Shown here piece after piece: positions 11,376 to 45,224 of a DNA stretch of 64,000 nt. Position 1 is the stretch's first letter. Each line of letters starts with the position of its first letter. A model generated the notes under the pieces. It was not told the DNA's origin. It saw only the letters and a program-made list of their open reading frames with translations, and made no database searches. The stretch lies in assembly GCA_026545225.1 (NCBI GenBank), contig CM048849.1:42060336-42124335 (forward strand), given 5' to 3'. A program made the position numbers and the translations under genes. The DNA comes from Cornus controversa (lineage: Eukaryota; Streptophyta; Magnoliopsida; Cornales; Cornaceae).

Positions 11376-13823
11376 GAAGATGCTGAGATGCTTCACTCAT
11401 ATGTTGTTAAAGTATTTATAGTTCCATTCTTTATTGTTTTCAATTTGCTTGTTTTAGCTCTCCTACCCTTTTTAATCTTATGAGGTTTCTGATTGTACAT
11501 GTAGTAAATTGATTTCAATTAAGATATCTCAATTAACAATGTTGATTATTTTGACCTACATCTGATATTTTAGCTGTTTAATCTGCTGCTTCTAGTGATA
11601 GTATGTGCATTCGTGTCCGTGTTCACTCAGCTGCTAGTAAAGTAAAAGTCCCAAGTTGCAAGCAGCAGAGTTGGAACGAAGCTGCAATCGATTCGACTAG
11701 TCTTGTTTGCAGGCTAATGTCTTTAGATTCCAGGTTCATGATAAAGGATGTCTCTACAGTTTCATTTCTTGGGTTGCTGATTATGGGTTTATACTCTCTC
11801 TCTCTCTCTCTCTCTTGTCGTTATCGTCGTTGTCATCATTCTTGCCTCTGTCCCAAATGAACGGGAGTTGTGTTTTTTCATTCTATTCTATTATACACAA
11901 TGTCTCCTCTAAATGCATCTCAAATTGAACTCAAGTAGCTCCATGTTTTTTATAATGTATGCTAGATTGCTTGTTAGTTCATCGAGGAATGGGCTTGATG
12001 AGTTTAGAACTATGAACAAGTCTGATTCGTTTATTCTGTGATCCAATTCCAAACGAGCTTCTAACCGGGCTGAGCCAATCTCAAGTAGCTTGATTTAAAG
12101 GGACAACCACAATTGTGGTTCAACTATAATGGATGAGTATTCAAGTTACCAAAAAAGTTGCAGCTTTAGAATAGCCCCCCCTTGTTTGAACAGTGAAGAG
12201 TTTGGCTTTGGATACAGAGGAGCTTGCTGATCAGTTGGGACTAGGATCCAAATTCTAGGTCATAGGCTTCTCTCTCTCTCTCCAATCTGTCTCTTCTCTA
12301 TTTTCCTAAAATTGCTCTAGTTAAGTCCAAGAGATGTCATTCATGCTTGCCCTTTTTATGATTTGGGATTTGATGGTTGTATTATTTTGAATTGGATCGA
12401 GTTTTTGGAGATTGACTACTATATATATATATAGATAGAGTTGGAAGCGGTTTTCGATTAAATCGTTTGGGAATACAGTGTTTGAATGAGGGCAAATTTT
12501 CCGTGATGAGGGGAGAGAGAGAAAGACAGGGAGAGAGATAAGGGTATTTTTGTAAATGAAAATAACATCTTTGATGCAATTATATGGATGATAATGTCTT
12601 TTTTGGCTGGATTTATGGGTATTTTGGTCACTACAACCAAATTTCTTTTTTGGAGAGCACGGTGCGAAAAATTAAAAAAGTCATAAATATTGGTTTTGTG
12701 TAATTACACCAAACTTTAGAGAAGATCGGTGTAATTACTTATTATACAATTTGAAACAAGTCGTGTCTCAATTCAAGCTAACATGATAGAATTATGATAT
12801 GATTAATTCAACAGACCAAATCTGATTAAAAGGGTTGAAGGCCCAAATTAATTTAACGAGTTTAATTGAATTAACACAACAATGACTTGAAAATATCAAT
12901 TCAAACCCACTAATTCTCAAAATTTGCCACCCTATCTCTCATCTTTTTGTCTCAAATATCAAACAGAGTACATTTGATAAATTAGTTAAATCAATTTATT
13001 ATTACATTGTAGAAAAAGTAGACATGAGATGATAGGAAATACTAGTTACTGTTCATGATCTATGTAGTTACTTGGGCCATAGCCCTTTAAAGGATCAGGG
13101 TTTAGATAAAGTAGGTCAAGGATGTGAAATTCTTTTAAAACTTTGTATATAATTGAATATTTTAAAACTACAAGGAAAGTTATTTGTTTATTATACTTTA
13201 AATGGTTGTTATTGTCTCACAAACATCAAGGTTTTGGCCAAAGGTTCCATCCTTGATTAATCTCTCTTATCATACCAATAGGCGAAGAATCTAGCTCGCT
13301 CTGTGTAGGTGACAAAACAGTCAAACAATTTTGGCTAGAAATCCTTCTACCACACTAAGAGCCGAAGAATCGAGGAGTGTAGGTGATAAAAACGAGACAT
13401 AGTGTCTTCGAAGACAAAGAATAGCAAGAAATGCCAGAACATGTCAATGTCATCCATCAAACATAAAATTCTTGCATGTCTTTATCACATTGAACAAAAG
13501 AATAATGCCAGCTAAACATTACATGAGACAAATATAACCAACAATTACATGATGTGTTTCTTCATTATTTTCCTTGGCCTTGATTAATTTAACTTGTATA
13601 TGTCATCTTATTTTTTAATTTTGAGAAGCATTTTCCTTTGTAAAATACTTAAGATGAGCATATTGGATGATGGGCTCAATGATCAATCCAACCAAAGTAA
13701 AAAATAATGGTTTAACTATGGTAGGCTGCAACTTTGGAAATACAGGTTTAATGACTAATATATATATATGTGTGTGTTATATATTTAATTCCTTTCATTC
13801 TTCCAAAAACTGAGGGATAGAGA
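11376..13823. other. intergenic between TLDc gene and WAK gene
   Basis: No exon structure supported. The first few hundred bases should hold the TLDc 3' UTR. A (CT)n run lies at 11794-11815 and AT or CT runs near 12270-12290 and 12420-12433. Near 12917-12930 the sequence TTTGCCACCCTA resembles the right end of the TAGGGGTG-type MITEs seen elsewhere here, but no matching left end was found. A TATA-like run (13760-13770) precedes the WAK start. Confidence 0.5.
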
Positions 13824-14868
13824 ATGGTGATGCAATTGGTGCTGCAAATCACACTATTGTTCTGGCTAACAGAAGCATCATCATCAGCATTAGCAGCATC
13901 ACTAGCAAAGCCTGGTTGTCAAGACAGGTGTGGAAATGTTATCATTCCATACCCATTTGGTATTGGAGCCAATTGTTTTGGTGATAAGTCTCTTGAGATA
14001 AGCTGCAACAAATCTTTCACCCCACCCAAACCTTTCTTGATCACTAGCACCAACCTTGAGGTGCTTGAAATCTCATTATCAGAAGGCACTGTTCGCGTCA
14101 ACAACCCGGTAATCACTAGTAATTGTGAAAACAGGACCAACAATCAGATTGTGTACTTGATGGAACCTTTTTACTTCTCAGACACCCACAACCGATTCAC
14201 GGCCATGGGCTGTGACAACGTCGCGTTAATCACCCAGCAAGAAAGGGTCATGGGGGGCTGCATGTCCATCTGCAATGTTACTTTAAGAGATAAAAGTTGC
14301 CATGGCATCAACTGCTGCCAAACCACAATCCCTCCATTACTCCACCTTTTCAATGCATCTCTAAGAAGCATAGATTCAAACAATAGTGATACAAAAGAGT
14401 GCAAACATGCCTTTATGGTGGACCAAGAATGGTTCACTAACCTGACAGACCCCTATGCCGTGCTGGAAATGGAGAATGTCCCTGCTGTGCTGAATTGGAC
14501 AACATATTGGGAGTGCCAATCATTCAGTAGTTTCTTTTATTCCCCTATGTCTAATAGCTCATTATGCGGCACTAATGCTTCCTGTTTCAATCAAAGCTCA
14601 ACTACTCATATATGCCATTGTGACCACGGCTATGAAGGAAATCCATATCTGCCTGATGGATGCCAGGGTAAAAGTTCTGCAGTTAATAAATTTGCACCGA
14701 GAATTTTTAGTTTATATATATGGGTAATGCTACTCAAACCAAATAGGTATGCATCCTATGGACACGGCCGGCCCGGGTACATGCCACCCAGGCGGCCGCT
14801 TTGGGCCCCATATTTCAAGGGGCCCCAAATTATATATGTGTGTGTGTGTGGGGGGGGGGGGACAAAAA

Positions 14869-14911
<43 letters not shown>

Positions 14912-17900
14912 TCAGAGACACATTTGTCTTTTAAAAAAAAGAGTAAGAGATATACGTAAAATAAATAGTGATAGGAAGAGAGAGAGATATATATGTGTCT
15001 GTGTGTGTGTTTGTGTGTGTGTAGTCATGAGTGGAAGACAAAATCAAAGAATGATGGGAGGAGAGAGAGAGAGAGTTGTATTAAAGAAAGAAACGTTGGT
15101 ATGGAAAAAAGAATGAAAAATTAAAAAGAAGCAAGAGAGAAATAAACTTAAATATACCATTTTGTTGATTATTGTAGACAGAAGGAAATGACACATGTTA
15201 TTTTTCTTCTTCTTGAGCAGATTCATGCACGCTATATATGTATTTTTTTAATCTATTTTTTTCTGTTTTAATTATTTAAGTGATTTCTGTTTTGTTTTTT
15301 TAAATCAATGTTTTTCTATTTTAATTAATATAAGTAATTTGTGTTGTGTTTATTTTATTATTTGTTTTTCTGTTTTATTTAAGATAAATGAACCTTATTG
15401 ATGTTCAATAATTTTTTATTTATATTTTTTGGAGCCCCAAATTCGAATCAAAGAGAGATTGATAGTTTGGAATTTGAAGATTGCTTGGATTTATCTACTT
15501 ATAAGATTAATTATTTTTCCTATGTCTACTTGAAAATTTGAATCTAGGTATAAAAAAAAATTTGATTCATTCTCAAAAAAAAGTTCTTCCTAAGTTTTTT
15601 TAAAAACAATAAACAAACAAAATGTGTCGATTTTGTCATTTTAATGAAACATGTGCACTATTATAATTTTTTTGCATTTGTGAAATTATATGTATAAAGG
15701 GCCTCTTATTTGAAAATTTGCTTTGGGCCCCTTTTTATTTTAGGATTCTCTGACCTACGGATGGAATTGTTTCTACCTAAGTATTCTGCCTAAGTATCAT
15801 TTTCATGTGTATATATAAATATACACATACACTAGTGTAGGCACTATTAATGTAGAAGGAACCAGGCCGTTAAATATATTGATTTTAGACGGTAGATAGA
15901 CAAAGACATTTTGGACCAAGCTTAAATCTAATATAGATATATATGCAATACCGGAACATATCTTCATTACTTGATTACCAACAAAAGCAAACACCTAAAG
16001 ACTTGTCTGTATAAACTTTTAACTTGCACTATCTACACAAGTAATAATCTATTGTCACTCTTCTGTATTTGGCACAATGTATGCATAGCATAGTCCTGTG
16101 CAGGTGTGTAGACAGGCATGTTAATAGCTTATTTTGTTTGATATTTCATGTCAGATATCAATGAATGTGCGATGATTGAAACCAATAACTGTCCGAGTCA
16201 TCAGACGACCTGTGAGAATACCCCAGGGAGTTACAGGTGCCATTATTGTCCACCTGGGTACGCATCTATTGGAACTGGTTCATCTAGTTGCTATAAAGTC
16301 GACTACAATGAAGATAACACAGGTGGGATCGTTATTATAGGTACGTCCTCCTTAACAAGCACAAATTTGGAGGTACTGATTATTGCTTGATTGATTCCTG
16401 TGAAAAAAGAACTAAATTTTGAGCTAAACTGAAAAACAAGAAGAAAAAAAGAACACTAGAGTTTTTAATCCATCTGTCAATATGATTTTTTAACACACAT
16501 AGAATTCAAATTTGCAAAACTTGAATCCCTTCTGACAGTAAAACTACTATAGGAAACATGGTAGCAGTAATTTATTAATAGCTTATTGTCTAGATCAAAT
16601 TTGTGGACTAATAGCCTCAGGAGGAGGACTTGTCTTTCTTATGGGAATAGATGGGATATGAACTAACCTAGGAAATATTAGCATATCCAAGTATTTTTTG
16701 CACTCAAGCTTAAAAATTTTAGGCCGAAAAGGTGATTCTTTCCTATTGAGTTCTGGCACAGGTCTCGGAATACAATTTTCACTTATTGGTGCATGGTGGA
16801 TGATGAAACTAGCGAGGAGAGGAAGGAAAATTAAGCTCAAGGAAAATTTCTTTAAACAAAATGGAGGTTTGCTACTACAGCAACAATTGTCTTCAGGTGA
16901 AGGTAACATTGAGAAAACCAAACTCTTCACTTCAAAGGAGTTGGAAAAAGCCACTCATCGATTTAATGAGAATCGAATACTAGGTCAAGGAGGCCAAGGT
17001 ACTGTTTACAAAGGCATGTTGACAGATGGTAGAATTGTAGCGGTTAAGAAGTCCAAAATAGTGGATGAAGGCAAACTTGAGCAATTTATTAACGAGGTGG
17101 TCATTTTATCACAAATTAACCATAGAAATGTAGTCAAGCTACATGGATGCTGTTTGGAGACACAAGTACCTCTGCTTGTTTATGAATTCATCCCTAATGG
17201 AACCCTTTTCCAGTATATCCATGACCAAAATGAAGAGTTCCCTCTTTCCTGGAACATTCGTGTTCGGATTGCTATAGAAGTTGCAGAAGCTCTTTCCTAT
17301 CTACACTCAGCAGCTTCCATACCCATTTATCATCGAGATATCAAGTCCACAAATATACTGTTGGATGATAAATACAGAGCAAAAGTGTGTGACTTTGGGA
17401 CTTCAAGATCAATTGCAGTTGATCAAACTCACTTGACCACAAAAGTACAGGGGACTTTTGGTTACTTGGATCCTCAATACTTCCAATCAAGTCAATTTAC
17501 AGAGAAGAGCGATGTTTATAGCTTTGGAGTAGTTCTTGTTGAGCTCTTAACAGGACAAAAACCGATCTTATCAACCAGACCTGAAGAATGGGAAAGTTTA
17601 GCAACATATTTCATATTGACAATGAAGGAGAATTGTTTGTTTGATATTCTTGATGCTCGAGTTGTGAAAGAGGGTGGGAAAGAAGAGATCACACGAGTCG
17701 CTAATCTTGCAAAAAGATGCTTAAACTTGAATGGGAGAAAAAGGCCCACAATGAAAGAAGTTGCAATGGAGTTGGAAGCGATTAGAATGTCACATGGAGC
17801 ATCTACTATTCAACAAAACTCTGAAGAGGTTGAATTTGCTGTAGCTGAACTCACCGAGTCTTGGGATGCTGCTTCAAATTGGACAGGATCTTATCTAGGT

Positions 17901-17912
17901 AGTACTGTATAA
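13824..17912 (+). CDS. wall-associated receptor-like kinase (WAK/WAKL)
   Basis: Exons 13824-14667, 16155-16340 and 16762-17912; GT-AG introns, phases close, 726 residues. In order: signal peptide (hydrophobic residues ~4-25); cell-wall galacturonan-binding region starting [17 protein letters not shown]; an EGF-like Cys region (~247-281); a calcium-binding EGF module encoded exactly by exon 2 (DINEC...[17 protein letters not shown], ~282-320); a transmembrane helix (~338-359) ending before RRGRK; and a Ser/Thr kinase. Kinase motifs: glycine loop [11 protein letters not shown] (~418-428), lysine in VAVKK (~439), catalytic loop HRDIKSTN (~534-541, an RD kinase), DFG (~554-556) and [16 protein letters not shown]. 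Everything needed for activity is visible. WAKs sit in the plasma membrane, bind pectin or oligogalacturonides and signal in growth and defence. The three-exon pattern matches the family. Intron 1 (1.5 kb) contains transposon debris. Confidence 0.95.
14755..15760. mobile_element. hAT-like debris and low-complexity insert in WAK intron 1
   Basis: The left part has GGCCGGCCCGGG (about 14766), GGCGGCCGC and repeated TTTGGGCCCC / GGGGCCCCAAATT words. The right part again has AAGGGCCTC and TTTGGGCCCCTTTTT (to about 15740). GC-rich GGCCGGCCC ends followed by GGGGCCC words are, from memory, typical of plant hAT elements of the TTF-zinc-finger type. Between them are TG, G and AT runs and T-rich sequence. 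No transposase reading frame survives and no target duplication was identified. Confidence 0.45.
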
Positions 17913-19608
17913 TCACAGATGTCCAATAGCTATTGTCCAAGTAAACAAAATGGTTAAGGTTTTGTTTTTCCATATATTACATGTTCTTTTGTGAACAAGG
18001 ATATAATCAACAAAGATTTTCATACTCCCAGTGTTTAAGAAATCATGATCAGCAAGAAAATTTTATTGTCCTCTATATTATGGTCGACACAACACAGATG
18101 CACCAAATTCTAAGAGTTCAGTATCAACCACCCAAAGGAGATGGTCCAAAGACATGCTCCATTTGGTCATATCTAAGAAAAAAAAATATTATGATTATTA
18201 AGACATCAATGGGATCTTCGCCCTCAAATCAGACAAGAAAAGAAAGGAATCCCTTTGAGTTCTTACACTTTTATGTAACTATGGCTATTTTTCTGAAGCT
18301 GCTCCCTATCAACAAGAGATAGGTGATACAAAAGAATCAGCTCAAAATCAACATCTATTCCAAGAAAAACTCTCTTCCACAACATTTTGGTAGTGTATTA
18401 TGTCTCCATCAACTCCATGCTTCATCATCTACAACCCAATAAAGGAAAAATGACACACAGAAGTCACATGGAGGACATGTTTGGGCAACTCTTCCGTGGA
18501 CTTGCAAAAAGAGAGGTTGTTTACAGATTTGGGACTGATAGGAAGTGTAGAGCCTGATTACACTGAACACCTTGGCCAAATTTTCTAGAAGGGTATTTTG
18601 GTATTTTTACACTTATTATGTAGCCCTAAGAGGTGCCTATATATACACAGTTTAAACTCTCTGTAATTGTATCCGTTTTTCTCATCATAGTGAAATTCCT
18701 GCAACACTAAAGATGTAGTCCTAGATTTTGGGTGAGCGTTGTAAATTTGTGTGCTCGCAAAGTGCTAACATAATAGTTGAAGGTCTTTAATGGTTTCCAA
18801 GTTTGTGCAAATAAAAATATATAAGGGCACATAAAGATCCAAATGTTTTTCTTTTCTCTAAGTGTGAGTTGATCCAAATGTATATACATCGTGGACATGT
18901 TTCAACTCAATTTACAAAATATTCATCATAACAGCAGTTGTAAAATGTGAAATTTTGGAATGATTGAAGTAAATAAGAACCAAACTATGGAGAATGACAA
19001 GTTTAGCTCCATTATTCTCAACTGTGCTGAAGATTCACTCAGAATTGAACAAGTCAACATCCTAAAAACTGAATCTTAAAATTCTCATTTAATTTATGGG
19101 TAACGCTTATAGATTAAAATCTAAAGTAGATTACCAAAAGGAAATGATTGAAATTGAGTGGCTATCTATGCTACATGCACTCTTCAAAAGTAGCTAAAGT
19201 ACCCATGTCGGACACACAATACTCAGACAAGAGTATGTGATATGTGTTCGACATTTTCGGTTGGACACGCACCCAAAAAAAACACATCCAATGATTCAAT
19301 TTTATTATATTATTGCTTCAAATATATTCAATTTTATTATATTCTATTTGAAAACATGAAAAAGGGTGTACATGAAACTCATCAAATCGTGCCTGCCCTC
19401 ATCCTTAGAACATGTCCATTGAGTTCCATTATGTGTGAACTCTTCAATACATGCACATACATGCATATAATATATATAAGACAGATCACAAGAAATACAC
19501 ATATACATAGAAACCAAATTTCTTGAAGAAGCAAATTTTTTTTTTTAATCTAAAGAGATGAAATATATACCAAGAAACAGCCATAGACATAAATTGAATG
19601 GTTTCAAC
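17913..19608. other. intergenic downstream of WAK, possible old LTR fragment
   Basis: No gene supported. The stretch at about 18470-18720 resembles the U3-R-U5 part of a Copia-type LTR: a short-intron-like spacer, TATATATACACAG (~18639), then CTCTCTGTAATTG, then ATAGTGAAATTCCTGCAACA. A shorter, related-looking stretch (TATATATACAGTCTGAAATTG...ATTATAGTAGAAACC) occurs at about 48400-48450. No LTR boundaries or internal domain were found, so the call is tentative. Confidence 0.35.
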
Positions 19609-19646
19609 GATAAATTGATAAAATAAGCTAGATGATTCCTTACTGA

Positions 19647-19800
19647 CCTCAAATTCAGAAGAATGAGACAAAGTACAGTTTGATTCACTGGAACTGAATT
19701 GAACAGCTAGAGCTGAAACTAAAAGCAAAAGGACGAGGGAATTGCAGAGAACAGAATGAATGAACAACAAATGAAAAAGGAAATGGTTTCTCTCTCTCTC
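19647..19800 (-). pseudogene. signal-peptide-like exon remnant
   Basis: On the minus strand this reads a strongly hydrophobic stretch (LLFIHSVLCNSLVLLLLV, then SALAVQFSSSESNCTL) that looks like a secretory signal peptide. It ends at a plausible donor (GAG|GTCAGTAAGG). There is no in-frame ATG before the upstream stop; only TTG codons are available. The second copy of the tandem duplication lacks this segment by deletion between related TTTG words. No second exon was recognised. I read it as a broken first exon of an unidentified small secreted protein, or chance. Confidence 0.3.
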
Positions 19801-20040
19801 TCTCTCTTATGTGCTTGGTTGAGCAGGAAATAAGTTTGAGCATGGATGAGTAAGAAATAAGTCAAGTGGTTAGTACCACGTAAGTTGATGTAATATATGT
19901 GAGTAATACATGTGAATAATTTAGGGGCGCACAAGGTTGATGTAATACATGTGAATAATTCAGGGGTACACAAGATTCGTTTCACTCGTAATAATTGTAA
20001 TTTAGGCGCCACAAGATTGATGTAATACATGTGAATAATT

Positions 20041-20323
20041 CAGGGGTGCACAAGATTCGGTAGTGAGAATTGTAAAGCCGAATCAAATCGATGAGTGAAA
20101 ATAATTTGTTTCGATTCAATTTTACAATTCTAACCTTGAAACATAAAAAAAACCATAATATAACAGTAATATATAAATAATATATATAAATACATTATAT
20201 GTTTATATATATATAGTAAAACTGTTCGGTTCGATTTCAAAGAATTTCAAACCATAGCTGAATCGATTCTATAATTTTAGAACCGAAACCAAAATGAATA
20301 TTAATAAAGTTTGTGCACCCCTA
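20041..20323. mobile_element. hAT-like MITE, copy 1 of the shared insertion
   Basis: Starts AGGGGTGCACAAGATTCGG and ends TTTGTGCACCCCTA, so the ends are inverted repeats of AGGGGTGCACAA. Both sides show GTGA(A/G)TA-like flanks. The same insertion is present at the same place in the second duplication copy (25644-25993), so it predates the duplication. The interior has GGTTCGATTTC / GAATCGATT words and AT-rich runs; no coding. Confidence 0.7.
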
Positions 20324-20871
20324 GTGAGTATTAACAGAGTACCTTGACCTGATAACCATTGAAATTTACACTCTTACGGAAGAACTCGAGTTCTGTCCAC
20401 TTTATACTTTATATTGTATGATGTATTGTGTTGCATAACCAATTTATAATTGTTACGTAATCAACACAGGATCCCATGTCACAAGAGGTGACCTTAATTC
20501 CTTGCAAAAATCTTTCATTACGTGCTGATATTAAACAGAAATTTAAAATACTTGTTTTGCCTTTGTAATAAACGTAAGAACAATTTTACCCTCATTTGAG
20601 GTTCAAACTATACTAGGATATTTCAATAAAATCAAACCAATCATTCAGTATAATATTTTATAGGGTAAATTATGCTGACCTCTCATAAGTTAGCCTAGTA
20701 ACACAGAGCATCAAACTTGTGCATTTTGTTGCACCAACCTCCTTTGTAACGGATTTGCCCAACAGACATTAAATTTTGGAGTTATTTTACCCTTTTATCC
20801 TAATTATTTTACTGTTAAAAATTATAAAATATCTTAATAAATAAAATTACTCTTTTGTTCACGCCACCCCA

Positions 20872-21140
20872 ACCACAATCACCATCCGACACCTGGCGGC
20901 GCCACCACCACCCCAACCACAGTCATCACCGCCACAATCTCAACCCACACTGGCAACGTAAAATCCACCACCCAAACCAGCGGTACCACCACCACCCCAA
21001 CCACAGTCACCACCCCACACCTGGCGGCGCCACCACAACCACAGTCACCACCACCACAATCCCAACCCACACTGGCAACGTAAAACCCACCACCCCAACC
21101 ATAGTCACCACCACAATCCATAACCACGGTCACCACCACC
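20872..21140. repeat. GC-rich CCACC-type repeat, two ~129-bp units
   Basis: CACCTGGCGGCGCCACCAC occurs at about 20890 and 21019, and CAACCCACACTGGCAACGTA follows in both units. It lies in the left arm of the Mutator-like element. The open frames through it are low-complexity (His/Pro/Thr) and are not taken as a gene. Confidence 0.7.
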
Positions 21141-22321
21141 ACAATCCCAACCATAGTCATCACAAACGTCATCGCAATAGCCACTGCCGTTTACATTCGA
21201 CGCTACCACGATCGTACCTTCCGTATCGGTCGGAGCTCGCATTCACCACAAACGTCATTGCAACCCCAATCGATCTCATTCGACACTACCACTGCCAAAT
21301 CATCCTGTCACCGACGCCAGCCCCCAAAATCGAAGCCTAGAACCCCATTGTTTCACCACCGAACAGCTACTGCCGCTTTAGATTTTTCCTTTGGTGTGAA
21401 TCTCATGATCCCCGATTCCATACCATGTGTTTGTATGTGTATATATATATACGTTTGTGTGTGTATTGAAATACCCCCAGAAAATTTCGCGCATGAGGTG
21501 GCCAATCTCATACACAAAACCTGGAGATACATACAATTGGTAGCAACAAGCATAGAATACAAAAGACAGACTAAAATAAATTCTAAAAGCTGAACAGAAA
21601 ATTCCACTAAATTGAAATAACCGATAAATAAATCGTTATATGCCTGGTAATACAATTTGGAAGTCCCGTAACGCAAGGACCCCTTAACCAGAATAAACAC
21701 AAGTTTAAGACTCTAATTTAAAACCAACAACCAAAACCTCCAAAAGAGTTCATAGTCTGACCCTTGAATAAGAGTATAGGTTTCTACCCTGTGACCGATG
21801 AGAAGAGATGTCTGCCACAACTAACCCTAAAACTCTATCCTTGCAGTGGAACCTGTTTAAAACCTGAAATATCAATAAAGTGGGTTAAACCCACGAGCAA
21901 GTTCTATCTATTACGTCCCAATCAGAGAACCAATATACATACCCTCAGCATAAGGGACACAAAAGAAAACAATAGATTTAACATACAAGCTATTCTTATT
22001 CCAGTTTCATGTTTTCAAAACAACAGTCATTAATTATAATATTCCACCCAAATCCTTATTATGCAAAAGTGATCACATTTCTGAAGTTCAGCAGAAATAA
22101 ACATAACATGAAATAATATCAAGTTTAAGCAATCCTAACATGCCATCATTTAATCTTTTGATACCTTAATAGGTATAGATATATACATACTAGTCATTTC
22201 CTATTTAGTTCATGTTTTCAAAAGTAAAATCATCTTATACATTGTTCCAACAAACCCTTATCATCCAACAATGAACACATTATTTAAGTTCAAAATAAAG
22301 AAAACATATGTATACATGTAT

Positions 22322-22600
22322 AGATACCTTATTAGATATGGGCGATCCTGACACGCCAAATGAATAGATACCTTATTAGGTATGGGCGATCCTGACACGC
22401 CAAATAAAATATATAGATACCTTATTAGGTATGGGCAATCCTGACATGCCAAATAAAATGCATAGATACCTTATTAGGTATGAGCGATCCTGACACGCCG
22501 GGCAATCCTTACATGCCAAATAAAATACATAGATACCTTATTAGGTATGGGCGATCCTGACACGCCGGGCAATCCTTACATGCCAAAATAAAATGCATAG
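22322..22600. repeat. tandem repeat (5 units) with internal palindrome
   Basis: Five units, each with ATAGATACCTTATTAGGTAT and then GG(G/A)C(G/A)ATCCTGACA(C/T)GCC. The first three have a period of about 48-50 bp. The last two are about 67-70 bp because they add GGGCAATCCTTACATGCC. TACCTTATTAGGTA inside each unit is a near-perfect inverted repeat. It lies inside the solo LTR. Confidence 0.85.
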
Positions 22601-22889
22601 ATACATTCCAATATGCAATATAAAATAACAAGGTGCATTATGATTTAAATTTGCACAACCGTTATTTCAAATCATCCAACATGAAATTATCATCATCAAG
22701 TATTTGATGGGCATTTATATCCTTAAAGAAAATTACATTCAAGTAAATCAAATAATTCAAACATCCATTAAAGAAGCAATTTCCCAACTCAACCTTCAAT
22801 GCACTCAAATATATGAGGGAGTCTAAACCTAACTTTTATCTAGGTTTCTGGGCATATTCTATTACTAAGAACCCTATTAAATCATGCTA

Positions 22890-23440
22890 GAATTTCCTAG
22901 AATTTTTGAGAATTTAAAAAAATATTTTTCTAGCAAAAAGAAAATAAACATAATTCGAGGCATACTTTCACAATCAACACAATCACAAGGGAGACTCATT
23001 TTGACATGAAATTTAAAACCCAAGTGCATTTTAATCCTATAAAGTTACCTAAATTTTTCTAGAATTTTCTGGAATTTTAAAATATTTTCTAAAAATAAAA
23101 GAATGTGAAAATCCAACTTTTAGACACTTTAAAAATAAATTGAACAACAAGGAAAGATTATTTTGAGTTGAAAATTTAAATCCAAGTGTATTTATTCTCC
23201 ATAGAATTACAGTAAAAATTTTGGAATTTTTGAAAATTTATAACTATTTTCTAAAATTAAAGAGGCTGAAAAATCTAGTTTTTAGACACTTTAAAAATTA
23301 ATTTAAAGACAATGGTAAATAATTTTGATATGAAATTTAAACCCCAAGCCCCTTAAGCTCCCAAGAAGTTGACATAAAATTTTGGGAATTTTTAGAATTA
23401 TAAAAGTATTTTTAAAAAATAATTTTTCCAGATTTTCAAG
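22890..23440. repeat. diverged ~160-bp tandem repeats inside the LTR
   Basis: Three to four degenerate units carry the words TTTTAGACACTTTAAAAAT (near 23117 and 23279), TTTGA(C/T)ATGAAATTTAAA, CCAAGTG, and GGAATTTT(T/A)GAA. Unit spacing is about 160 bp. Confidence 0.65.
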
Positions 23441-24909
23441 TTTTCCCAAAAATTTCAAAAATACAAAATAAATATCAAAACAATTCGGAATGGGCCCATA
23501 TTGGACCCAGAGGTGGGCCCCCGCGAGTGGGGCCCGAAAACAATTTTCCGACCACCGGCGCCAGCGGCACGCGCCCCCACGCGCCGGCGGACGCGTGGCC
23601 CCTTTTTTTTTCTTTTTTTTTTTTTCTTCCCCAGCTGAAGCTTCAGCGGCCAACAATGGAGGCCGAGCTTTCCGATCACTTCCGAGCACCGAATCGCGCA
23701 TATGAATATACCATTGAACTCGTATCGATCTAAGCTACGTATTAGTACCAAAATTATCCCCTCTCGTGGACTAAATCAAAAACGTCCAATTTCAAGTTTG
23801 GAAAATATAAAATTTTAAACTCAATTTCCCGTCAATTTACCCAACGGTTCATAACGAAACTTTCAAGGATTGTTCTAGGAAGTAAGATCTACCTTTTAAT
23901 CGGAACAAAATCCCTCAAAAATGATAAACACAGTAGACCCAAATTTCATGTTCGTATATATATACACCCGCCTATACAATCATATATACATGTATATACA
24001 TATGCAAAAATACCCTAAAATAGTACCAAAACTCCAAAATCCTAATGTTTAATTCACAGAATTATCTTAGCATGAAAAATCATTTAAATTTCATAATTAA
24101 ATGCATACAAATTTCTAACAACATGTCTATACAATTAGCATAATTAATTATCACAAAATTTATCAACAGAGAAAAAAAAATATACAATTATATACAAATT
24201 TTCAAAATAAACACAATCCTCAAACCTATATTATACATACGGATTCAAAGGGGAAGAGAAGAATCAAACTTGTCTCTTTGACGATTCAAACATTCGTTCA
24301 CCCGAACTCCTTCTCTCTTTCGTTTACTCTCCTGATTTTTGTGCGTAATGCAAACGGCAGAAACCCTAATTTCTATTATCTTTTGTCCTAATCATTTTTA
24401 TTCTATTATTATTATTTTTTTTTTTTTCTAAAAACTAAATAACTAAAAATAATAATAATAATAACCATAATAATATAACTATAACCATGGCCCAACAACT
24501 TAAGCATATCCTTAGCCCAACCATTCCAGCCCAGATTCCTCCCTAACCCAATCCAAAGCATTTAAAATATTTAAATCAAATAATACACAATCAATAAACA
24601 ATTCATATAAATTGATAAAAATAAAAATAGAGCAATTCACATGAAATGAAAGAATTTATAAAGACAACCAATTCACATAAAATAATAATTGTATAAAGAC
24701 CTAACAATTCACATGAAATGATAAAATGCATATAAAGGCATTCCACATGAATTGAAAAATAATAATAATAATAATATAAAGAAATTTAAATTCTTTAAAA
24801 TAATAGACGTCCAAATTTTTCAGAGTATTACATGTATACAAAGAAATTGATGGTGGTGGTGACTGTGGTTGTGGTGGTGCCGCTAGGTGTAGGGTTGGGA
24901 TGGTTAGGG

Positions 24910-25079
24910 TATTACATTATATATACACATATATATTTACATATATATTTATACATATATATGCAACCGTATATATGTACACACACACACACACATGTGT
25001 GTGTGTGTGTACATATATACGGTTGCATATATATGTATAAATATATATGTAAATATATATGTGTATATATAATGTAATA
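24910..25079. repeat. near-perfect 170-bp palindrome
   Basis: The outer 69 bases of each arm (24910-24978 and 25011-25079) are exact reverse complements as read. The core is (AC)n followed by (GT)n and is off by one dinucleotide. Landmarks are TATATGCAACCGTATATATG on the left and its complement CATATATACGGTTGCATATA on the right. It lies in the right arm of the Mutator-like element. An uninterrupted palindrome of this size can form a cruciform or hairpin. Confidence 0.95.
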
Positions 25080-25643
25080 ACAGTGGACATATATATATAT
25101 ATATATAAGTTGATGGGTATTTTAGTCCGTTCAACTAATTTTTTTGATAAAACTAACAAAATTTTCGATGGAGGGAGTCTTTGTCATAACGGAGCAAACC
25201 TCAGGGGAGCACAGTGTAGCGAAATTCATTAGTTTGATGTCGGGTGTAATTAAGTTAAACTTCAAGGAAGGTCAGTGCAATTTACCCTATTTTATAACAT
25301 AGGAGATGTCCATGTAATTTCCACACTTGACACAGACGTCAATGCAATTTACCCTAAAAATTGGAGGGAGGGGGGGGGGGGGGGGGGGTGGACCAATTTT
25401 CAAGAGAGAAATTAAAAAAAGTAATTATATACCATTCACTCGTTGTATGATAAATCCAACAATTCCATCGCAAATTGCAAAGAAATTGATAAAATAAGTT
25501 AGATAATTCCTTACCGACCTCAAATTCAGAAGACTAAGACAAAGTACAATTTGGTTGAGCAGGAAATAAGTTAAGCTTGGTTGAGTAATAAATAAGTCAA
25601 GTGATTAGTAGCACGTAAGTTGATGGAATACATGTGAATAATT

Positions 25644-25993
25644 TAGGGGTGCGCAAGATTCGGTTGAATCATGAGATTATAGAATCGAACCAAGTCGATC
25701 AAAACATTTTGGTTTGATAGGATTTCACGGTTCTAGCCTTAAAACATAGAAAAAATATAATATAAATAATATAATAGTAATATATAGTATAATATATTAA
25801 TATAAATAATATAATAGTAATATATAGTATAATATATTAATATAAATAATATATATAAATACATTATATATATATATAGTAAACAGTGAATTCGGTTTAA
25901 ATAGTTACAAACCATAACTAAGCCATTATTTAACGATTCTATCATTTTGGAACCAAAACTAAACTGAATATTAGTAGAGTTTGTGCACCCCTA
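25644..25993. mobile_element. hAT-like MITE, copy 2 of the shared insertion
   Basis: Begins TAGGGGTGCGCAAGATTCGG and ends GTTTGTGCACCCCTA, with GTGAATAAT before and GTGAATATT after. It is homologous to the MITE at 20041-20323 in the first duplication copy. The interior includes two copies of an AT-rich ~48-bp word (TATAAATAATATAATAGTAA). Confidence 0.7.
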
Positions 25994-26397
25994 GTGAATA
26001 TTAATAGAGTATCAAGTTTGTGCACCCCTAGTGAATATTAATAGAGTACCTTGCACTGATAATCATTGAAATTTACACTCTTATGGAAGAACCCGAATCT
26101 TGTCTCATGCCACATTAACAATTTTACATGACTTGCGCAATAACTTCACATCGCTTATGCAAGTTCTACTTTATATTACATGTTATATAACTAATATATT
26201 GTATTGCATAACCATCTGTAATTATTACATAATCAACACAAGATCCCGTGTCACAAGAGGTGATCCTAATTCTTTGAAAAAATCTTTTATCACAGTAAAA
26301 GACAAAATATGTTGATATTCAACAGAAACTTAAAATATTTGTTTTGCCTTTGTAATAAATGTAAGGACAATTTTACCCTCACTTAAGGTTCAAACTA

Positions 26398-26979
26398 GGG
26401 GTGCACAAATAACCGGAACCGTAAATGAATCAAACCGAACCGTTCACTACAGTTTCAATTTTAATTCCAAATTTTAGGAACCGTTCACTACGGTTCCGGT
26501 TCTTAGTCAATGAACCGGAACAGTTAAAAAAAATATATATATAATATATAATTAAATGAATAATAATAACTTCTAAGTTCTAGTGTTCTATATATATAAT
26601 ATAATATAAATAAATACTAATAGGTTCTAAATTCTAGTGTTCTATTTATATATAAAGTATAAAATATATAATATATAAATAAATACATTTAGCTTCTAAG
26701 TACTAATTTTCTATATATTCATATAATATAATATATATATATAAATAAATACTAATAGCTTCTAATCTATTGTTATAACTAGGGGTGCACAATTATGAGT
26801 GTGTATCTTGCCAATGTTTATAAATAAAAAAAAATTGACAAAGAACCATTAGAGAAGAGAACCGAACCGCAAAATACTGGAACCGAACCGAAGAGTTCTG
26901 GTTCCAAAATTAAGAAACTGTTGGAAACAATTTCAGTTCCACCAAGAACCGTAAGGAACTATACTTTGTGCACCCCTAA
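26398..26979. mobile_element. hAT-like MITE private to duplication copy 2
   Basis: Ends are (TA)GGGGTGCACAAATAACCGG and ACTTTGTGCACCCC(TA). TTCAAACTA is repeated at 26389-26397 and 26980-26988; if TA is counted in the repeat, the duplication is 8 bp with one mismatch (GTTCAAAC / ATTCAAAC), as for hAT elements. Copy 1 of the duplication has the uninterrupted site GGTTCAAACTATACTAGG near 20604. Subterminal GGAACCG / CGGTTCC words recur. About 580 bp, no coding. A second AGGGGTGCACAA word at about 26781 suggests a nested or rearranged end. Confidence 0.8.
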
Positions 26980-27515
26980 TTCAAACTATAGTAGGATATT
27001 TCAATAAAATCAAACCAATCATTCAGTATAATATTTTAAAACATAGGAGATGTCCATGTAATTTCCACACTTGACACAAACGTCAATGCAATTTACCCTA
27101 AAAATGGGGGGGGGAACAATTTTCAGGAGGAAAATTAAAAAAGTTGTTATATTCCATTCACTGGTTGCTGTATGGTAAATCCAACAATTCCATGGCAAAA
27201 TCAAATTGCAAAGGGATTCTCTTTCCCTGAAAACAAGGGAGAGAAATTGGACTAACATTGTTATGATACAAATGGACTTGGCACTGGGGTTAGTCTAATT
27301 CTACTGTCTCCACTTGCTCAGCTCTGCCCACCATAGGATGTGCATCAATTTCCTTGGCCTTACATTGCCTCCCTTCATTGCCTTTCCCTCGAAATCAGAT
27401 CATTGAATTAAAACAAATAATCGAATATAACTAATATGAGACTCCGCCATAAACTTTCACTTCTCCTGTGAAAAGAAAAAAAACAAAGCTAATAGTAGAT
27501 ATTGTATGCTTCACT

Positions 27516-27964
27516 CTAGGAATCTGATGGAGCACCATCCCCCGGCAGGCCAAATATGCGGAGGTTACGATCCATTGATCCGACTGCAATATAGTTCGCA
27601 TCTGGACCAAAATTTACACAGGTTGCTCTACCTGCACTCGCAACACAAAAATGAACTTTTAACTACACTACCATGTATTATTAGAGCAAAAGCAAAAGTG
27701 ATATATAGACGTATACACAATGTATTCTTATCCGGTATGTGTCCAACATACATGGTTGAAGGTCCAAAAAGAATGAAGTGCACATGTTAAGAACACTAAG
27801 TCACATAAAAGTACCATTCTTATCTATATAAATAAAAGAATTATAAAATATATGAGTATTTAACCATGTCCCTGTGGTTGTGTTTTGGAATCTGATGCAC
27901 ACATACACATATACCCAAGTATACAACATATGTTTAGACAAATGAGAAAGGAAACAATAGCTAC

Positions 27965-35500: not shown

Positions 35501-38500
35501 CTTTCTTCAAAATAGTGAACAGACAGAGATGATAATATGATGAAAAAAATGAAGATAAAAGCTCATAAAAAAGGATTCTGTTTGGAGCTTTGCAAAGCAA
35601 TCAGAGGACAGCACATAAAACTGGCACTACTTGGCAGTTATAGCATACAGATTCCCCTTTTTGGCATAACGTTACAAACTTTTTGAAGTACCAATGTTGG
35701 ACATAGGTGGCAACACGACAATGGACCTAGGGTTTCTAGTAACCTGCCCTGCCCTGGCCCATCCAGCCCCTATTAGATGGGTTTGGGGAGGAATTGAGAA
35801 GGAAAACATACACCTGTCCTGATTCAGGCTGGAATCGAGATTTATCCATCCTGCACTAGTTATACATGTATTTCACTAAAGGGCTCCATATAATTTTATT
35901 AAACATTCATCAATTGTCCTTCCCTCAACAATTTTGTTTAGAGTTTGCAAATACCAGTCTCTCTGCCTCTAAGTCCCCAGGCAGTATCAATCTCAGTCTC
36001 TCATACACAACAGAACAAAACATCCCCCAGGGCACAATAGAGAGCAGTTTCATTGCAACACCAGAGATGACCATTAGGTTGTGACATCTAAGCTTGTCCA
36101 CCATGAGATTTGTTTGATTGCATTCAGATTATGTAACTTTTGCTATTCATAATTTTTGACATGAGAGTTGTTTCAAATCAGAGTTAAATTATCTATATGG
36201 TCTTTGAATATACTAAACATTCTTCTGTAGATCGTGTCCACATGCATACACTACACCTTCATATACTCTTTTTATGAAATTCTTTCATTGTTTCATTTTA
36301 GATCTAAATGATTTATACTTCAGAGGGAAATATACTAAATATTCTGCTGCAGATCGTGTCTATATGTATACAATAAACATTCATATACTCTTTCTGTGAT
36401 ATTCTTTTTGGGTATTACGCAGGGGTTTCATCAGAAATCTGATTTATTTGCGTTGGGAACAAGTAGTTTTCTCTTTTGTCAATTTATGGTTTCATATCAA
36501 TACATTTTAACTTTCAGATTTATGGAAAACAAATGGGTGTATTTTCTTTCTTGTTTATTGATTTTTAATTTGAAATAAATTAGTTGACGTTATTTAGTAC
36601 AAATTCAGGTGACTTTTTTGTTCTTTGGGTTTTTATTGTTTTCAAAGTTAATTCATAGAAAACTATATTATCAAGTCAATATGTTGCCTTTTCCTTTTTG
36701 TTAAATAACTTTGTGGACTGGTGCTAAAATTGCTGATGAGATTGTTTCTTAGCATATCTTTCCGTCTGATAATACGAGTCCATTGTACTTAGAGCAATCA
36801 AAGCATGTTATTCTGCTGGAGCATTTTATAGCTGTATGGTTTTCCATTCACGCTGTAAAATTTCTACGAGGTTTATCTGGGACAGGGTGGGGCAGGGTGA
36901 CAAGAAGTTTGGAGTATTACCAATTGGAGTTATGTTGGGTCACATGTTGTAAACCTAGCAACAGGAGAGGGTTGGTGCACTTTTTGGTTGGGCAGGGTCA
37001 GAAAAAAGGGTGCACATTTCTATACCCACCTCATTTGCAAGAACACAACATGGGTACGGTCTAGAATAGGTGTCTATTTGCCAAGGATTGGACAAGTACC
37101 AATAATTGTGTGTCCAACAAAGGTAAGCATGAAATAGAAGATCCACGTAATGCATCAGTGATATGTTAACAACATGGTTATTCCAAAATTAATCAAAATA
37201 TTCATGTTGAACACACCACGTAGTTACATCGGCATATCATTTCTCACCTAGGGTGTAAAAGGAGACTTTAAATTTCAGCAGTTGAGTCAGACTACAGTAT
37301 GAGATAAACCAACACCGAAACCCACACATACACTCCTAAATGTGTACTTGAGATCATGTAACATAGGAAGTCATATGTGTTAATGGTTTAAATGTTCTTC
37401 CATAGAAATTAATGAAATTCCTACACCGCAGATCCACTAATATACCACTACTACTACTTATACCACAGTTCCACTAATGTACTACTACTACTACTACAGA
37501 TTAAAGTACAAGATAAAACCAACAACTAAACCCACACACACTCCTCCTAAATGCGTACTTGAGATCATGTAACATAGGAAGTCACGTGTGTTAATGATTT
37601 GAATGTTCTTCAATAGAAATTAATGAAATTCCTATACCGCAGGTCCACTAATATACTACTACTACCTATACCGCAGGTCCATTAATATACTACTATTACT
37701 GCTGCTACTACCACCACCTATACCACAGGTCCACTAATATACTACTAGGCAAAGTAGAACCTGCCTAAGCAGTAAGCATGGAAGCAATTTAACTAGTACT
37801 ACTATGCAGTTAATGACAGCAGATATAAGATGCATGAATAGAGTTTAAATTCTGGCACGAATGCCATACCTTGGCGTAGTTGATATCCACAGATAAAATG
37901 CCAGGTTTGCTGGTTTTGTGAAGTGGATAACTATTGAGTTGGGTATACCTCTCCAGCGCATCAAGGGGAGCCAATGTTGGAGGGATCTGGGGAAGGAAAA
38001 AGGCAAAAAGCCGAGAAAAAAAGGGTCAGAGACCAAATATGCTAAAATAATACCTGAACTACCAACTGTTTTCTCAAAAAGTGTAAATTCAAGACATAAT
38101 TAGTAAAGGAATATGGTAAAAAATTAATGAAACACGAATTTCTATATTAATTAATCAATGTAATAACACATAAAAATAAACAATACCTGCCGCTTTTTCC
38201 GCTGCTGAGAAAGTGCCGCATTACAGTCGGTTAGCTCTGCAATGATGTTAGCAGAAACTCCTGGACGGATTTTCTTGCCACCAGATCCCATCTCCTCATC
38301 ATCAGCAGCTACAATGGCAACAACCCATTATATAATTTAAACTTCGTTTAAATAAAATCAACCTACAAGCATACAAGCAAGAACCTCTTTTCCCATTGCT
38401 GAAAGCAGAAGCATTAACACTAGGCACTGTTGATGCTGACATGGGTATCTCTCTTTCTGCCTGTCCCAGTAAGGATGTTGCTTCATCCCTCTCTTTCTTT

Positions 38501-41500
38501 AGTCTTGCAATGACACGGCACGCAGCATCATGCTGGCAATGCATGGCAGGTAATTTTGACAACCAAATTTCATTCAGCTAAACAGAATATATAAATAAAA
38601 AGGGACTTCATATTCCAAGAAATAGGAAAAGGATAAAGAAAGAAGTAAGAAGAAAAAAGAGAAGCCTTGAACCTGCATGACTTGGAATAAAAAATTGAAA
38701 AAGAATATAACCCATCCAGAACTCATAATCCCCTTCATGTTTAACTCTCCCTCAGCACTAAATGGGCATACATAATGATGATTGATGGCCTTATGATGCT
38801 CAATGCACAAAGTACCCTCATGTTAAAATTGTCTCTAAAATAAATATTCTAATAAGAAAACAAACGCTTCTAAACTTAATGATATATTAGAAATAGGAAA
38901 ATGCCACTCAGACTAATAAACTTTGCTAATAAGCTGTGGGTTGATTTGTATAGTCAGATGCACTACAATCTAATTTAAGCCTTGAGGCATTGATGTAGGT
39001 CCTTAAACATCGTTCCATAATTTCTTTAAATTTATTGTTATGATAAAAATTGATTATTTACTAAAAACTGCTCAATCTGTCACATCAACCATTAAACACA
39101 CCGTTTACTAAAGCTTAAAAAATTCATGCTATCGTGAGAAAAATTAAACTGTGCAATACCAAGATTAGTAATATTATAATTACAGACCAAACGGCCCCTT
39201 GCCCAATGGTATAACATCCCCACCCTCAAAGAAGAGGGAGGGGTTCGAGCCTGGACGTGGGCAATGTGTGTGTGTCAGTACTTACTTACCTGACAAAAAT
39301 ATATATATATATAATTACAGCAACAAAAACAATAATGATTAAACTATTTACTAGATGTTGTACACTTCAGCAAAATGTTAAAGCTTCAAATATTAGTTAG
39401 TACTTAAGCTAGTCAATACTACCTGGTAGAGAGCATGACTTAGCTCTTGCCTCGCTGTATGTAGTTGTTGCTCCAATGCAAAATTGGATAGCATCAAACC
39501 ATCCCATTCCTAGTGTCATAGAAAATCAGATGCTAAAATAAGGGAATTTCTTGTTCAAAAATATAGAGGGAAAAATAGCACCAAAAACCAGAACAACCAG
39601 GGGATCATAAGAATGCGTTGAAAAAAAAGGCATATATCAAGTCCAAGATCCTAGCCAATAAAATTAATAGAAGACATGTATATATCAATTCAAGAACTCA
39701 AGACCTACCAGCTAAATTATGTAAATATCCTTGAATAAGAACTTCAGAAACTGAAATCCATCAGACAAAAAAAAAGGTCCGGGACAATGTTACTTGGAAT
39801 GTGGATGACTGAGCTTCATGGAACTTAAACGATATCAAGACATACCAGTAAAATATATAGATGTCCTTGAATAAAAACTTTAGAAACTGAAGTCCCTCAA
39901 TAGTCTGGGACAATTTTATTCAAAATCTGGACGACTGAGATTTATGGAACGAGAAAGGTTACACAGTATGCCGCTGACCCCAGAATTATCTCGGCCATTT
40001 GACAACCCAAAAAGAGATGATCATTACATACGGACCCCAAGTTAAGAGGTAGTTGATATTAGCTTAATATTTGAATATCAGTTCGAATGTAATAAGACAG
40101 TTTCAAATTATTTTATATGGGTCTCCCAAAAAAATTTGAAGTACCCCTATCTGATAAACAAGCTATTTGTATGTAATGCATCCAACATGTCTGGTTAAAC
40201 ATTGACTAAGCAAGCCTAGTAGGCTAGTAGATTAGTACTTCAAGTTTAAATAAATAGTTTTACATAACTCTTTTGTTGTGTTCCATTTGTCACAAGATTG
40301 TTCCAAAATGAGTTGAGTATCCATGCAAATTACAATCCGTTACATAAAAACAGTGCATTGTACTAAAAAGAAACTATATTAAGAGATCTGAATATTTAGT
40401 TGTGCCATGTTCATTGAGTTTGGATTTTGACTCTTAGAGACATGCCCATACCCTAATCGAGTACTCCAACTGACTAACATAGGTTTTAAAGGCCAAGATT
40501 GTTCTCTTCAATTCATCGAAGATGATATAAATATGTGTGTGTGTAATATTAACCTTAAAATCCACAAGTTTTTAGTTAGTTTCAGAACTAGGTTACCTAT
40601 AAGTGACAATGAAAGGGACAACAGTACATATTTTAATAATTGTCAGTTCCTTACTTTCCGAAATAATAATAATAATAATTGTCAGTTGCTGAAAGTGCAA
40701 AGTTGTTGCCCCTTTTCAATGAAAAAGATACACCCTTGGGCTTTTACTCAATAATATTAATACTGCCACGTAAATTGGAAAATAAGTTAGATATAAGAGA
40801 ACAAAAAATGGAACGCCATATTTAGAGTTCGAGAACAGAAGTGTGTACATGTTTAGGGTCACAATCCTTATCGTGGATTGCTTTGATACTGGCCAGTGTA
40901 GGTAATACTGGTTTGGAACTTTTGGTACAACAATGAGACAGCAAGGCGAACTTTCAAAAAATAATAATAATAAATAAATAAAACACTTTGAAAACTCATT
41001 TTTAAACCTTTTGTTTTATTAAGAAAAGGACCAAATGTTATTATATTAATTTCCAACTCATTGAGTTGAAGCATAAAAGATAATAAAAGAAACAACATTA
41101 TGCCAAAAGTAAAAAAACGAAATGGAAAAAATTATCAATACTAGATAAGAGAACAATGGTAACTTTACTTTTACCAGACTAGATAAGTTAAACGGTCTTA
41201 ACCATGATTACTGGCACACAAAAAAACAAAGACCTCCCACCAAACAATAAAATGGAATATGGTCATGATTAAACATGGGTTAGGAAAGGGCAACGACCTT
41301 CATGTATTAACTGTATTTATGATTTTCAAAAGGAATGGCAACAGAACCAAGGTTAAGGTTTATACTTTCACAAAATATATGCTACAAGGAAAGTTGCAGA
41401 AACACATACATTCTGGAATATCCCAAGCATCCCATGGATGCTTGCAGCTTGTACGGGTCTCGGCTTCACTATCTGCATAGAGTTCAATAAGACTAAGTTT

Positions 41501-42298: not shown

Positions 42299-42476
42299 TG
42301 CGCTGAGAGCTAGGGTTTGGTGAGCTCTGTCGTTCTTCGCCGCAGCTCAGAGAAAACGGCCGACGCAGAGAGAGAGATGAGAAGTAAAAGGCAATTATTA
42401 TTGGGATTAGGGATGCTAGAGCAAAAAACCGCCTAACTGATTGGAAGACCCAAACCCAATGCAGTAAACTCTTATA
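42299..42476 (-). promoter_or_regulatory. PRP19 leader/promoter with telo-box
   Basis: Only about 180 bp separate the PRP19 start codon from an old LTR fragment. The stretch contains TAGGGTTT (42311-42318; AAACCCTA on the PRP19 strand), a telo-box, and a CT-rich leader (TCTCTCTCTGCG on the minus strand). No TATA box was seen. The promoter may therefore extend into transposon-derived DNA. Confidence 0.5.
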
Positions 42477-42763
42477 TAATATATTTAATATTACGTTCCT
42501 ATCCAAATTCGTCTGGGATTTCTAATTCCATTAGGACTAGAATATTTTATCTTTCAAGTAAACTTAACCTCTAATATTATGTGTCTATAATAGACATTTA
42601 TGTATTCTTTATTAATATTATTTTCATATTCCTAGTTTAGCTAGGACCATGATTTTTTATCTTTTAGGTAAACTTGGTCTCTAAGATTATGTGCATATAA
42701 ATACGCATTTATACATTCTTCATCGATATCAATTCAATATATATATTTTTCATATTTCTAACA
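42477..42763. mobile_element. degenerate LTR fragment(s)
   Basis: Begins ATAATATATTTAATATTACG and ends CATATTTCTAACA, the start and end words of the LTRs at 42779 and 45976. Inside, CTAG(T)TTAGCTAGGAC, GTAAACTT(A/G)(A/G)(T/C)CTCTAA and ATATCAATTCAATATATAT match those LTRs. A partial internal duplication is present. It is older than the complete element next to it. Confidence 0.7.
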
Positions 42764-42888
42764 TTTTTTTTAAAAAAGCGTTAGATAATATATTTAATAT
42801 TATGTTACTTCTATCCTAATCCAAATAAGATTCCTAGTTCAGCTAGGATTAGGGTTTCTTATCTCATAAGTAAACTTGAGGCCTGTTT

Positions 42889-43718
42889 GGTAACCGTTTA
42901 TGTTTAGTGTTTATTGTTTATAAAAACAAATTTTCAGGATAAACATATTTGTTAATTTTTGTTTTGTTTATAAATTTTCAAAACGCTTTTAAAACAACAC
43001 TGTTCATAAGCCTTCAAATCCTAAACACCAAAATGATGTTTATTGTTTATGTTTATCAAAAAAAAAAAATTCTTTTTTTATCTAAAATGGTGATTATATT
43101 ATTTTAATTAAAATTTGAAACTAAAAGTGAGAAAATGAAAAGAAAAAAAATTATAAAAGGCTATTGTTTGATACAATGATAAAAATATTAGAATTATCAA
43201 ATGTGGACATAATTACTAATATACTTGATAATAAGAAATAGTTACTTAGGGGCACACATGCTAAAAAGAAGAAAAAAAAAACCTTATTTGAGAAAAATAA
43301 TAGTAAAAAAAAATCTCAATCATCTCTTTGTTAGAAAAACAAGAATGGTATTTTGTACTCATGTCATTCATTCATTTTCAATGTTGAAACAAAAATAGAA
43401 ATCAAAAAAATAAAAAAGAAAGTATTAGCATGAGAAGTTCAAGAGCAAGAGTATGCCCTCCAAATCCCTCTTCTCACTCCATACAAATTGAAAATTTTTT
43501 AACTTTTTCATAGTTATATATATTTTGGCTTTTTGGTAGGGGTGCACAAAGAACCGGTGGAACCATAAAGAACTTTAGCTGAACCGAATCGAATTGTTCA
43601 TTACGGTTTCGGTTCCGGCTCCAAATTTTAGGAACCGTTCACTACGATTCTGGTTCCAATCCTTGAAATCGGAATCGTTGAATATATATATATAGTTATA
43701 AAACTCCTATAATGATTT

Positions 43719-43765
<47 letters not shown>

Positions 43766-44345: not shown

Positions 44346-44763
44346 TTGGTTTCTAAGATTATTTGCCTATAAATAGGCCTTTATGTATTCTTCATCAATA
44401 TCAATTCAATATATATATATATATATTTTCATATTTCTAACATGATATCAGAACCTATCAATTCTTGGTAGTCAATCGTAAAAAATAGCTTCCGTCAAAT
44501 TAACACCTAACTAACGTCGTTACACAATTAGGCGTGAGAGTTGTCAAATAATTCTTTCTCTCTTTTACCCTAATCAAAGGTGACTTGAAGCTCACTCTTC
44601 TCTAACAGAGAAAATCAGATTCGTGGCTCACTCTTCTCTAGCCGAGAGAATTAGATTTGTGGTGTTCGAATCGTGTTTGCGAAGATTTAAAAATCTGGTT
44701 CGGGTAGATCAAGAAAACAACAGTAGCAGCTGCAACAAGAGCTGAATATGCAACAACAATCTA

Positions 44764-44934
<171 letters not shown>

Positions 44935-45224
44935 CTAGAAGATAATAAATTCAAAGAGCTTCGATTTGATATATTGTATGTCTATAGTATGAGTAGAAAA
45001 GTGTGATCAAATCTGTATTTGAAGTTCCTGTCCTGATTACGAATTTCTACGCAGGAATTCATCTTTTCGACTTGGATTTGCGAAGAGATTCAGATTATTT
45101 TTCGTCCAAAGACGCTAACGAATTGGAGGCCACCTCCAAGACCCACGATCACCGCCACCCTCACATTACCGTCCGAGTCTCCACAACTCCCTCGCTCACT
45201 AAGTCCTCATCCAAAGAGTTTCGT

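Follow-up and report, generated by a model that had tools for sequence, protein, structure and literature searches.

Among the systems described so far, the closest to the locus considered here is maize p1 (P1-rw1077/P1-rr4B2), for which a 1269-bp tandem duplication involving fragments of Mutator-like elements (MULEs) is described (Goettel and Messing, 2010; PMC3014980). The same study describes a deletion, filler DNA of non-homologous end joining, and nested retrotransposons, with the order of events obtained from sequence comparison (PMC3014980). A 64,000-bp stretch of Cornus controversa DNA (assembly GCA_026545225.1, contig CM048849.1, C5:42060336-42124335; hereafter the window, in whose coordinates features are given) was analyzed here together with searches of the 772-Mb genome. 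It contains a tandem duplication of about 1.2 kb in which each copy carries a transposable element (TE) missing from the other: a MULE-like insertion in copy 1 and a hAT-type miniature inverted-repeat transposable element (MITE) in copy 2. Overall, the best explanation is very probably that the duplication occurred first and was followed by separate TE insertions into each copy.

Related empty site (RESite) comparisons use a paralogous sequence without the insertion to support the mobility of a TE and to give its target site duplication (TSD). The logic applied here is that of RESite comparisons of other plant TEs, except that here the empty sites lie next to each other, each copy supplying the one for the other. 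Like maize p1, this locus combines a tandem duplication on the ~1.2-kb scale, a MULE, a deletion, a probable nested retroelement, and an event order based on sequence. In maize, however, the comparison drew on several alleles, and MULE fragments, along with enhancer sequence, are part of what was duplicated; in C. controversa both empty sites are in one haplotype, and the MULE appears to be later than the duplication. A small open-access literature search returned no paper on related empty sites combined with TEs and tandem duplication, and none on conversion of tandem duplicates in connection with TE insertion order; a closer precedent may exist.

The duplicated unit (19609-20662 plus 25297-25482; + strand) is repeated head to tail as copy 2 at 25483-27213 (+ strand). 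The left part of copy 1 (19609-20662) closes with the left TSD of the MULE-like insertion, TATTTTATA, at 20654-20662, and copy 1 resumes at 25288-25482 with the right TSD (25288-25296) followed by its right part. The unit-unit junction was placed at 25480-25483. Self-BLAST of the window gave colinear direct matches of 19612-20660 and 25288-25474 to 25483-27199 (best E-value 9e-52), a series that includes a 59-bp piece pairing 20602-20660 with 26980-27038. When the inserts were removed and the copies aligned globally, 104 of 929 aligned columns were mismatched, 67 of them transitions, and there were 25 gap events in all, several of them small and one of them 135 bp. By block, in copy 1 coordinates, the mismatch proportion (p) was 0.100 at 19609-19686, 0.087 at 19815-19890, 0.088 at 19891-20050 (34 columns only), 0.147 in a MITE shared by both copies (20051-20332), 0.131 at 20333-20600, 0.024 at 20601-25363, and 0.113 at 25364-25480. 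This end-to-end alignment bears out the original prediction of two ~1.2-kb copies arranged head to tail, with breaks where they had been placed and with similarity that runs colinearly through the full unit, beyond short dispersed repeats. Its interval for the MULE (20663-25287) was exact, whereas the unit ends at about 27213 rather than 27211 and the hAT MITE occupies 26396-26978 rather than 26398-26979; its list lacked a 39-bp tandem expansion in copy 1, 37-bp and 40-bp expansions in copy 2, and smaller indels. The left flank of copy 1 continues into homology with a cluster elsewhere on C5 (see below); therefore, copy 1 preserves the ancestral left edge, and the junction created by the duplication is that at 25480-25483.

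The insertion in copy 1 spans 4625 bp (20663-25287) and has imperfect terminal inverted repeats (TIRs) beginning GGGTAAATT. Read from left to right, the order is TATTTTATA, the element from GGGTAAATTA to CAATTTACCC, and TATTTTATA again, a perfect 9-bp TSD within the 8-11 bp characteristic of MULEs. Copy 2 has one uninterrupted TATTTTAAA at this site, from which the joined flanks of copy 1 differ by 1 base in the 9-bp target. The outermost 9 bases of the two ends are identical, and their similarity becomes imperfect further in. When random pairs of points separated by 4625 bp were drawn from this stretch of low complexity, 171 of 20000 had an identical 9-mer within 10 bp on either side; with the coincident TIRs and gap edges taken into account as well, a chance TSD is very unlikely. 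For comparison, the mosquito MULEs described in one study have 8-9-bp TSDs, TIRs, and heterogeneous internal sequence (PMC5225508). The copy 1 element resembles non-autonomous MULEs in its 9-bp TSD and in having TIRs, but its TIRs are imperfect. A Pfam scan of one internal frame (20828-21340), the single frame scanned, gave no match. Another, older MULE-like terminus lies immediately to the right of the insertion and is common to the two copies of the unit; the reverse complement of this terminus (25297-25357) starts with TTAGGGTAAATTGCATTGAC.

The copy 1 insertion is composite. Within it, a 3366-bp element (21467-24832) has TG...CA ends (TGAAATACCC...GAGTATTACA) and is bounded by a perfect 5-bp TSD, TGTAT (21462-21466 and 24833-24837), in keeping with the 4-6 bp of such elements. 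Self-BLAST of the window revealed only internal direct repeats and no second terminal repeat in 21467-24832, which, to judge from its ends and TSD, is probably a solo long terminal repeat (LTR) nested in the MULE. With the nested insert and one TSD copy removed, the MULE-like element measures 1254 bp. Thus, the 4.6-kb MULE that had been predicted is indeed absent from copy 2, but it consists of a MULE-like element of about 1.25 kb split by a 3366-bp LTR-like insert. The right arm of the MULE contains a 170-bp, AT-rich, near-perfect palindrome (24910-25079; 98.8% self-complementary). Part of the GC-rich interior of the MULE (20864-21380; 56% GC) recurs in inverted orientation at 24846-24910.

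The hAT MITE (26396-26978; 583 bp) is found in copy 2 only. It is flanked by GTTCAAAC on the left, runs from TAGGGGTGCACAAA to TTTGTGCACCCCTA, and is followed by ATTCAAAC. Its own TIRs (TAGGGGTGCACAAA) are identical at 14 of 14 positions, and the two 8-bp TSD copies match at 7 of 8 positions, the mismatch being one change after insertion. Copy 1 carries a single GTTCAAAC, and joining the hAT flanks reproduces the copy 1 site with 0 differences in the 8-bp target GTTCAAAC. As had been proposed, then, a hAT-like MITE, bounded by its TSD at the alignment gap, is present in copy 2 and absent from copy 1, which has the single-copy site. A genome search gave at least 3049 first-look candidates, so the family is large. 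Forty were scored, and the 39 other than the element itself match it at 78-87% and all lie on other contigs. All 7 relatives tested among the best-ranked (L002-L008), with end pairs taken as the maximum-scoring pair near each end, showed TIRs that agree at 10-12 of 14 bases and 8-bp TSDs that agree at 6-8 positions; relative L011 of the hAT search list had no automatic end pairing, and its flanks show TIR-like ends. Like other hAT-type MITEs, the element has an 8-bp TSD, a short TIR (TAGGGGTGCACA), and many genome copies, with no difference among the features tested.

A further hAT-type MITE, older than the duplication as had been suggested, is present in both copies on sequence and alignment evidence, at 20042-20323 in copy 1 (AGGGGTGCACAAG...TTTGTGCACCCCTA) and 25644-26030 in copy 2; its edges are approximate, and its own TSD is not clean. 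Tandem expansions have altered it separately in each copy. The 39-bp expansion (19903-20054, + strand) involves the flank and 5' end of the MITE in copy 1 only, and copy 2 has the 40-bp expansion internally (25758-25875) and the 37-bp expansion at the 3' end (25978-26048). The end expansions are independent and affect opposite ends of the shared MITE, 5' in copy 1 and 3' in copy 2; they may mark places where a transposase cut at one end only, or they may reflect simple slippage.

Copy 2 also lacks a 135-bp segment found in copy 1 (19680-19814, + strand). A genome search with 19560-19900 found 10 places. Three belong to the locus (the query itself plus two pieces of copy 2), and the other 7 lie at C5:44.21-44.31 Mb, ~2.2 Mb from the locus and on the opposite strand. 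Of five cluster loci aligned at the gap, L010, L011, and L013 carry related sequence, and L012 and L014 are different there. Because three outgroup loci have sequence related to the segment, copy 2 must have lost it, and the polarity that had been proposed is confirmed. Together, the 7 cluster loci match 17754-19783 in pieces that are 67-92% identical. Only L017 and L018 extend into the coding end of a wall-associated kinase (WAK)-like gene to the left of the unit (17754/17784-17912), the other loci having been compared with flank limited to 1.5 kb; from these two members, the group appears to be a WAK cluster. Since 17754-19783 is related to 7 places in the opposite orientation, the WAK-like gene of the window seems to belong to a tandem cluster of its own chromosome, from which it has been dispersed.

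In the favored sequence of events, the starting unit would have held the old hAT-type MITE and the old MULE-like end, and about 1.2 kb of intergenic DNA would then have been duplicated locally in tandem, possibly with local conversion afterwards. After the duplication, a non-autonomous MULE-like element would have inserted into copy 1 with a 9-bp TSD, and an LTR retrotransposon would have entered the MULE and later been reduced to a solo LTR. In copy 2, the hAT MITE would have inserted with an 8-bp TSD, and 135 bp was lost; small tandem expansions also arose in both copies, within the old MITE or at its ends. Insertion was presumably by cut-and-paste, via transposases supplied from elsewhere. 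The claim that the order can be read within one locus holds for the shared MITE, the duplication, and the independent insertions, but the locus does not record which of the MULE and the hAT MITE came first.

This order takes the empty sites to be original. The main caveat is that MULEs can excise precisely: Muta1, which has 8-9-bp TSDs, is capable of precise excision in yeast, leaving one TSD copy, and when TSDs were present ~90% of the Muta1NA1 revertants had arisen by precise excision (PMC5225508). The MULE could thus have been present before the duplication and have been lost cleanly from copy 2. However, copy 2 has neither a footprint nor a second TSD, and an extra event would be needed, which makes this history highly unlikely. 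For the MITE, restoration of a clean site in copy 1 by excision is less likely still. Excision of hAT elements usually leaves footprints. The empty sites are therefore read here as probably original rather than restored.

The resemblance between the copies might instead be confined to short dispersed repeats, as the unit does hold dispersed MITE sequence, but the chance of this is vanishingly small. The blocks outside the MITE (19609-19686, 19815-19890, 20333-20600, and 25364-25480) are colinear at p of 0.09-0.13, and matches to 19560-19900 are confined to the two copies at the locus and the C5:44.21-44.31 Mb cluster. Chance or dispersed-repeat similarity was also rejected on the colinear self-BLAST and the end-to-end alignment. 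Assemblies of heterozygous plants do sometimes join two haplotypes head to tail, and an artifact of this kind would mimic a tandem duplication; here, ~11% divergence and 25 gap events are high for alleles, and neither flanking gene is duplicated along with the unit, such that an assembly error is a very slender prospect.

Two observations weigh against duplication followed by independent insertions in its simplest form. The block at 20601-25363, whose copy 2 half is 26980-27105, has 3 mismatches in 127 columns as opposed to 101 in 802 elsewhere, which a single duplication and a uniform clock do not predict. The other concerns a 75-bp 5' block, in which the copies differ at 8 of 75 positions. 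By cluster majority, copy 2 carries the change at 6 of these sites and copy 1 at none; at 1 of the other two the cluster agreed with neither copy, and at the last it offered no base. Copy 1 shows 5, 5, 6, 7, and 10 differences from the five cluster loci over 71-73 bases (10/71 for L010), and copy 2 shows 10-12 from all five. Copy 1 is therefore nearer to four of the five cluster loci than it is to copy 2, and this block alone does not show that the duplication postdates the split from the cluster. One base common to copies 1 and 2 and absent from all five cluster loci speaks for a duplication younger than that split.

The low divergence around the MULE site suggests local gene conversion or constraint. 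Conversion, put first here with some reservation, would have reset divergence between the copies in a tract (20602-20662 plus 25297-25363, against 26980-27105) before the MULE landed; the left edge of the tract coincides with the hAT insertion point, and such an event would be an addition to the duplication-first order, not a replacement for it. In its favor, the tract has 3/127 mismatches and no gap before a poly-G run, versus 101/802 outside, and the fraction of 20000 permutations of mismatch positions with an equally clean 130-column stretch was 0.006. Against it, the block edges were chosen after the data had been viewed, such that Fisher values are optimistic, and the deficit lies mostly in transitions (1/127 vs. 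66/802), transversions not differing significantly (2/127 vs. 35/802; p 0.10); lower cytosine methylation or constraint fits as well. Conversion in this tract is accordingly a serious candidate that falls somewhat short of an even chance. It is more doubtful that conversion homogenized the surroundings of the MULE site, ended at the hAT insertion, and left two clocks, of duplication and of conversion, that bracket both insertions.

The same unevenness bears on the proposal that divergence dates the duplication, which stands only loosely. Kimura two-parameter distances range from 0.024 to 0.166 among blocks. At a rate of 6.5e-9 substitutions per site per year, these translate into ages from about 2 to about 13 million years, a spread too wide to be given as a single date. 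Dating is unsafe because block divergence varies several-fold and is one-sided in the sole block that can be compared with an outgroup.

To the left of the duplication, WAK-like reading frames on the + strand include GUB_WAK_bind and WAK domains within 13821-15116 and a protein kinase domain at 16662-17912. To the right, on the - strand, is a PRP19-like gene with a Prp19 domain at 38302-38577, and the piece bearing this domain has a PDB match to pre-mRNA-processing factor 19 (E-value 0.00023). A stop codon at 27516-27518 closes a frame just beyond copy 2 and is taken as the end of this gene. With the WAK-like kinase on the + strand and the PRP19-like gene on the - strand, the duplication therefore sits between two convergent 3' ends, and the duplicated ~1.2 kb is, with the same high confidence as the explanation of which it is part, intergenic DNA. 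A minus-strand frame at 19638-19806, inside the cluster-related flank, resembles a signal peptide, has a donor-like site, GTAAGG, after it, and contains no methionine; that it might be a first exon copied as promoter DNA was considered. Elsewhere in the window, 42469-46182 contains several direct repeats that are 73-91% similar (within 42469-42878, 44345-44443, and 45975-46182) and that surround another relative of the hAT MITE (43537 onward, 70%); this cluster probably consists of nested LTR-type elements.

The process recorded here is well known, and with maize p1 as a close precedent the locus is a tidy example of ordinary plant genome evolution that changes no general idea. It shows divergence between tandem copies to be unfit as a uniform clock. 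Its value is that of a worked example in which the relative ages of TEs are read inside one haplotype, and in which reciprocal empty sites allow TSDs and the limits of elements to be defined with no second genome at hand.

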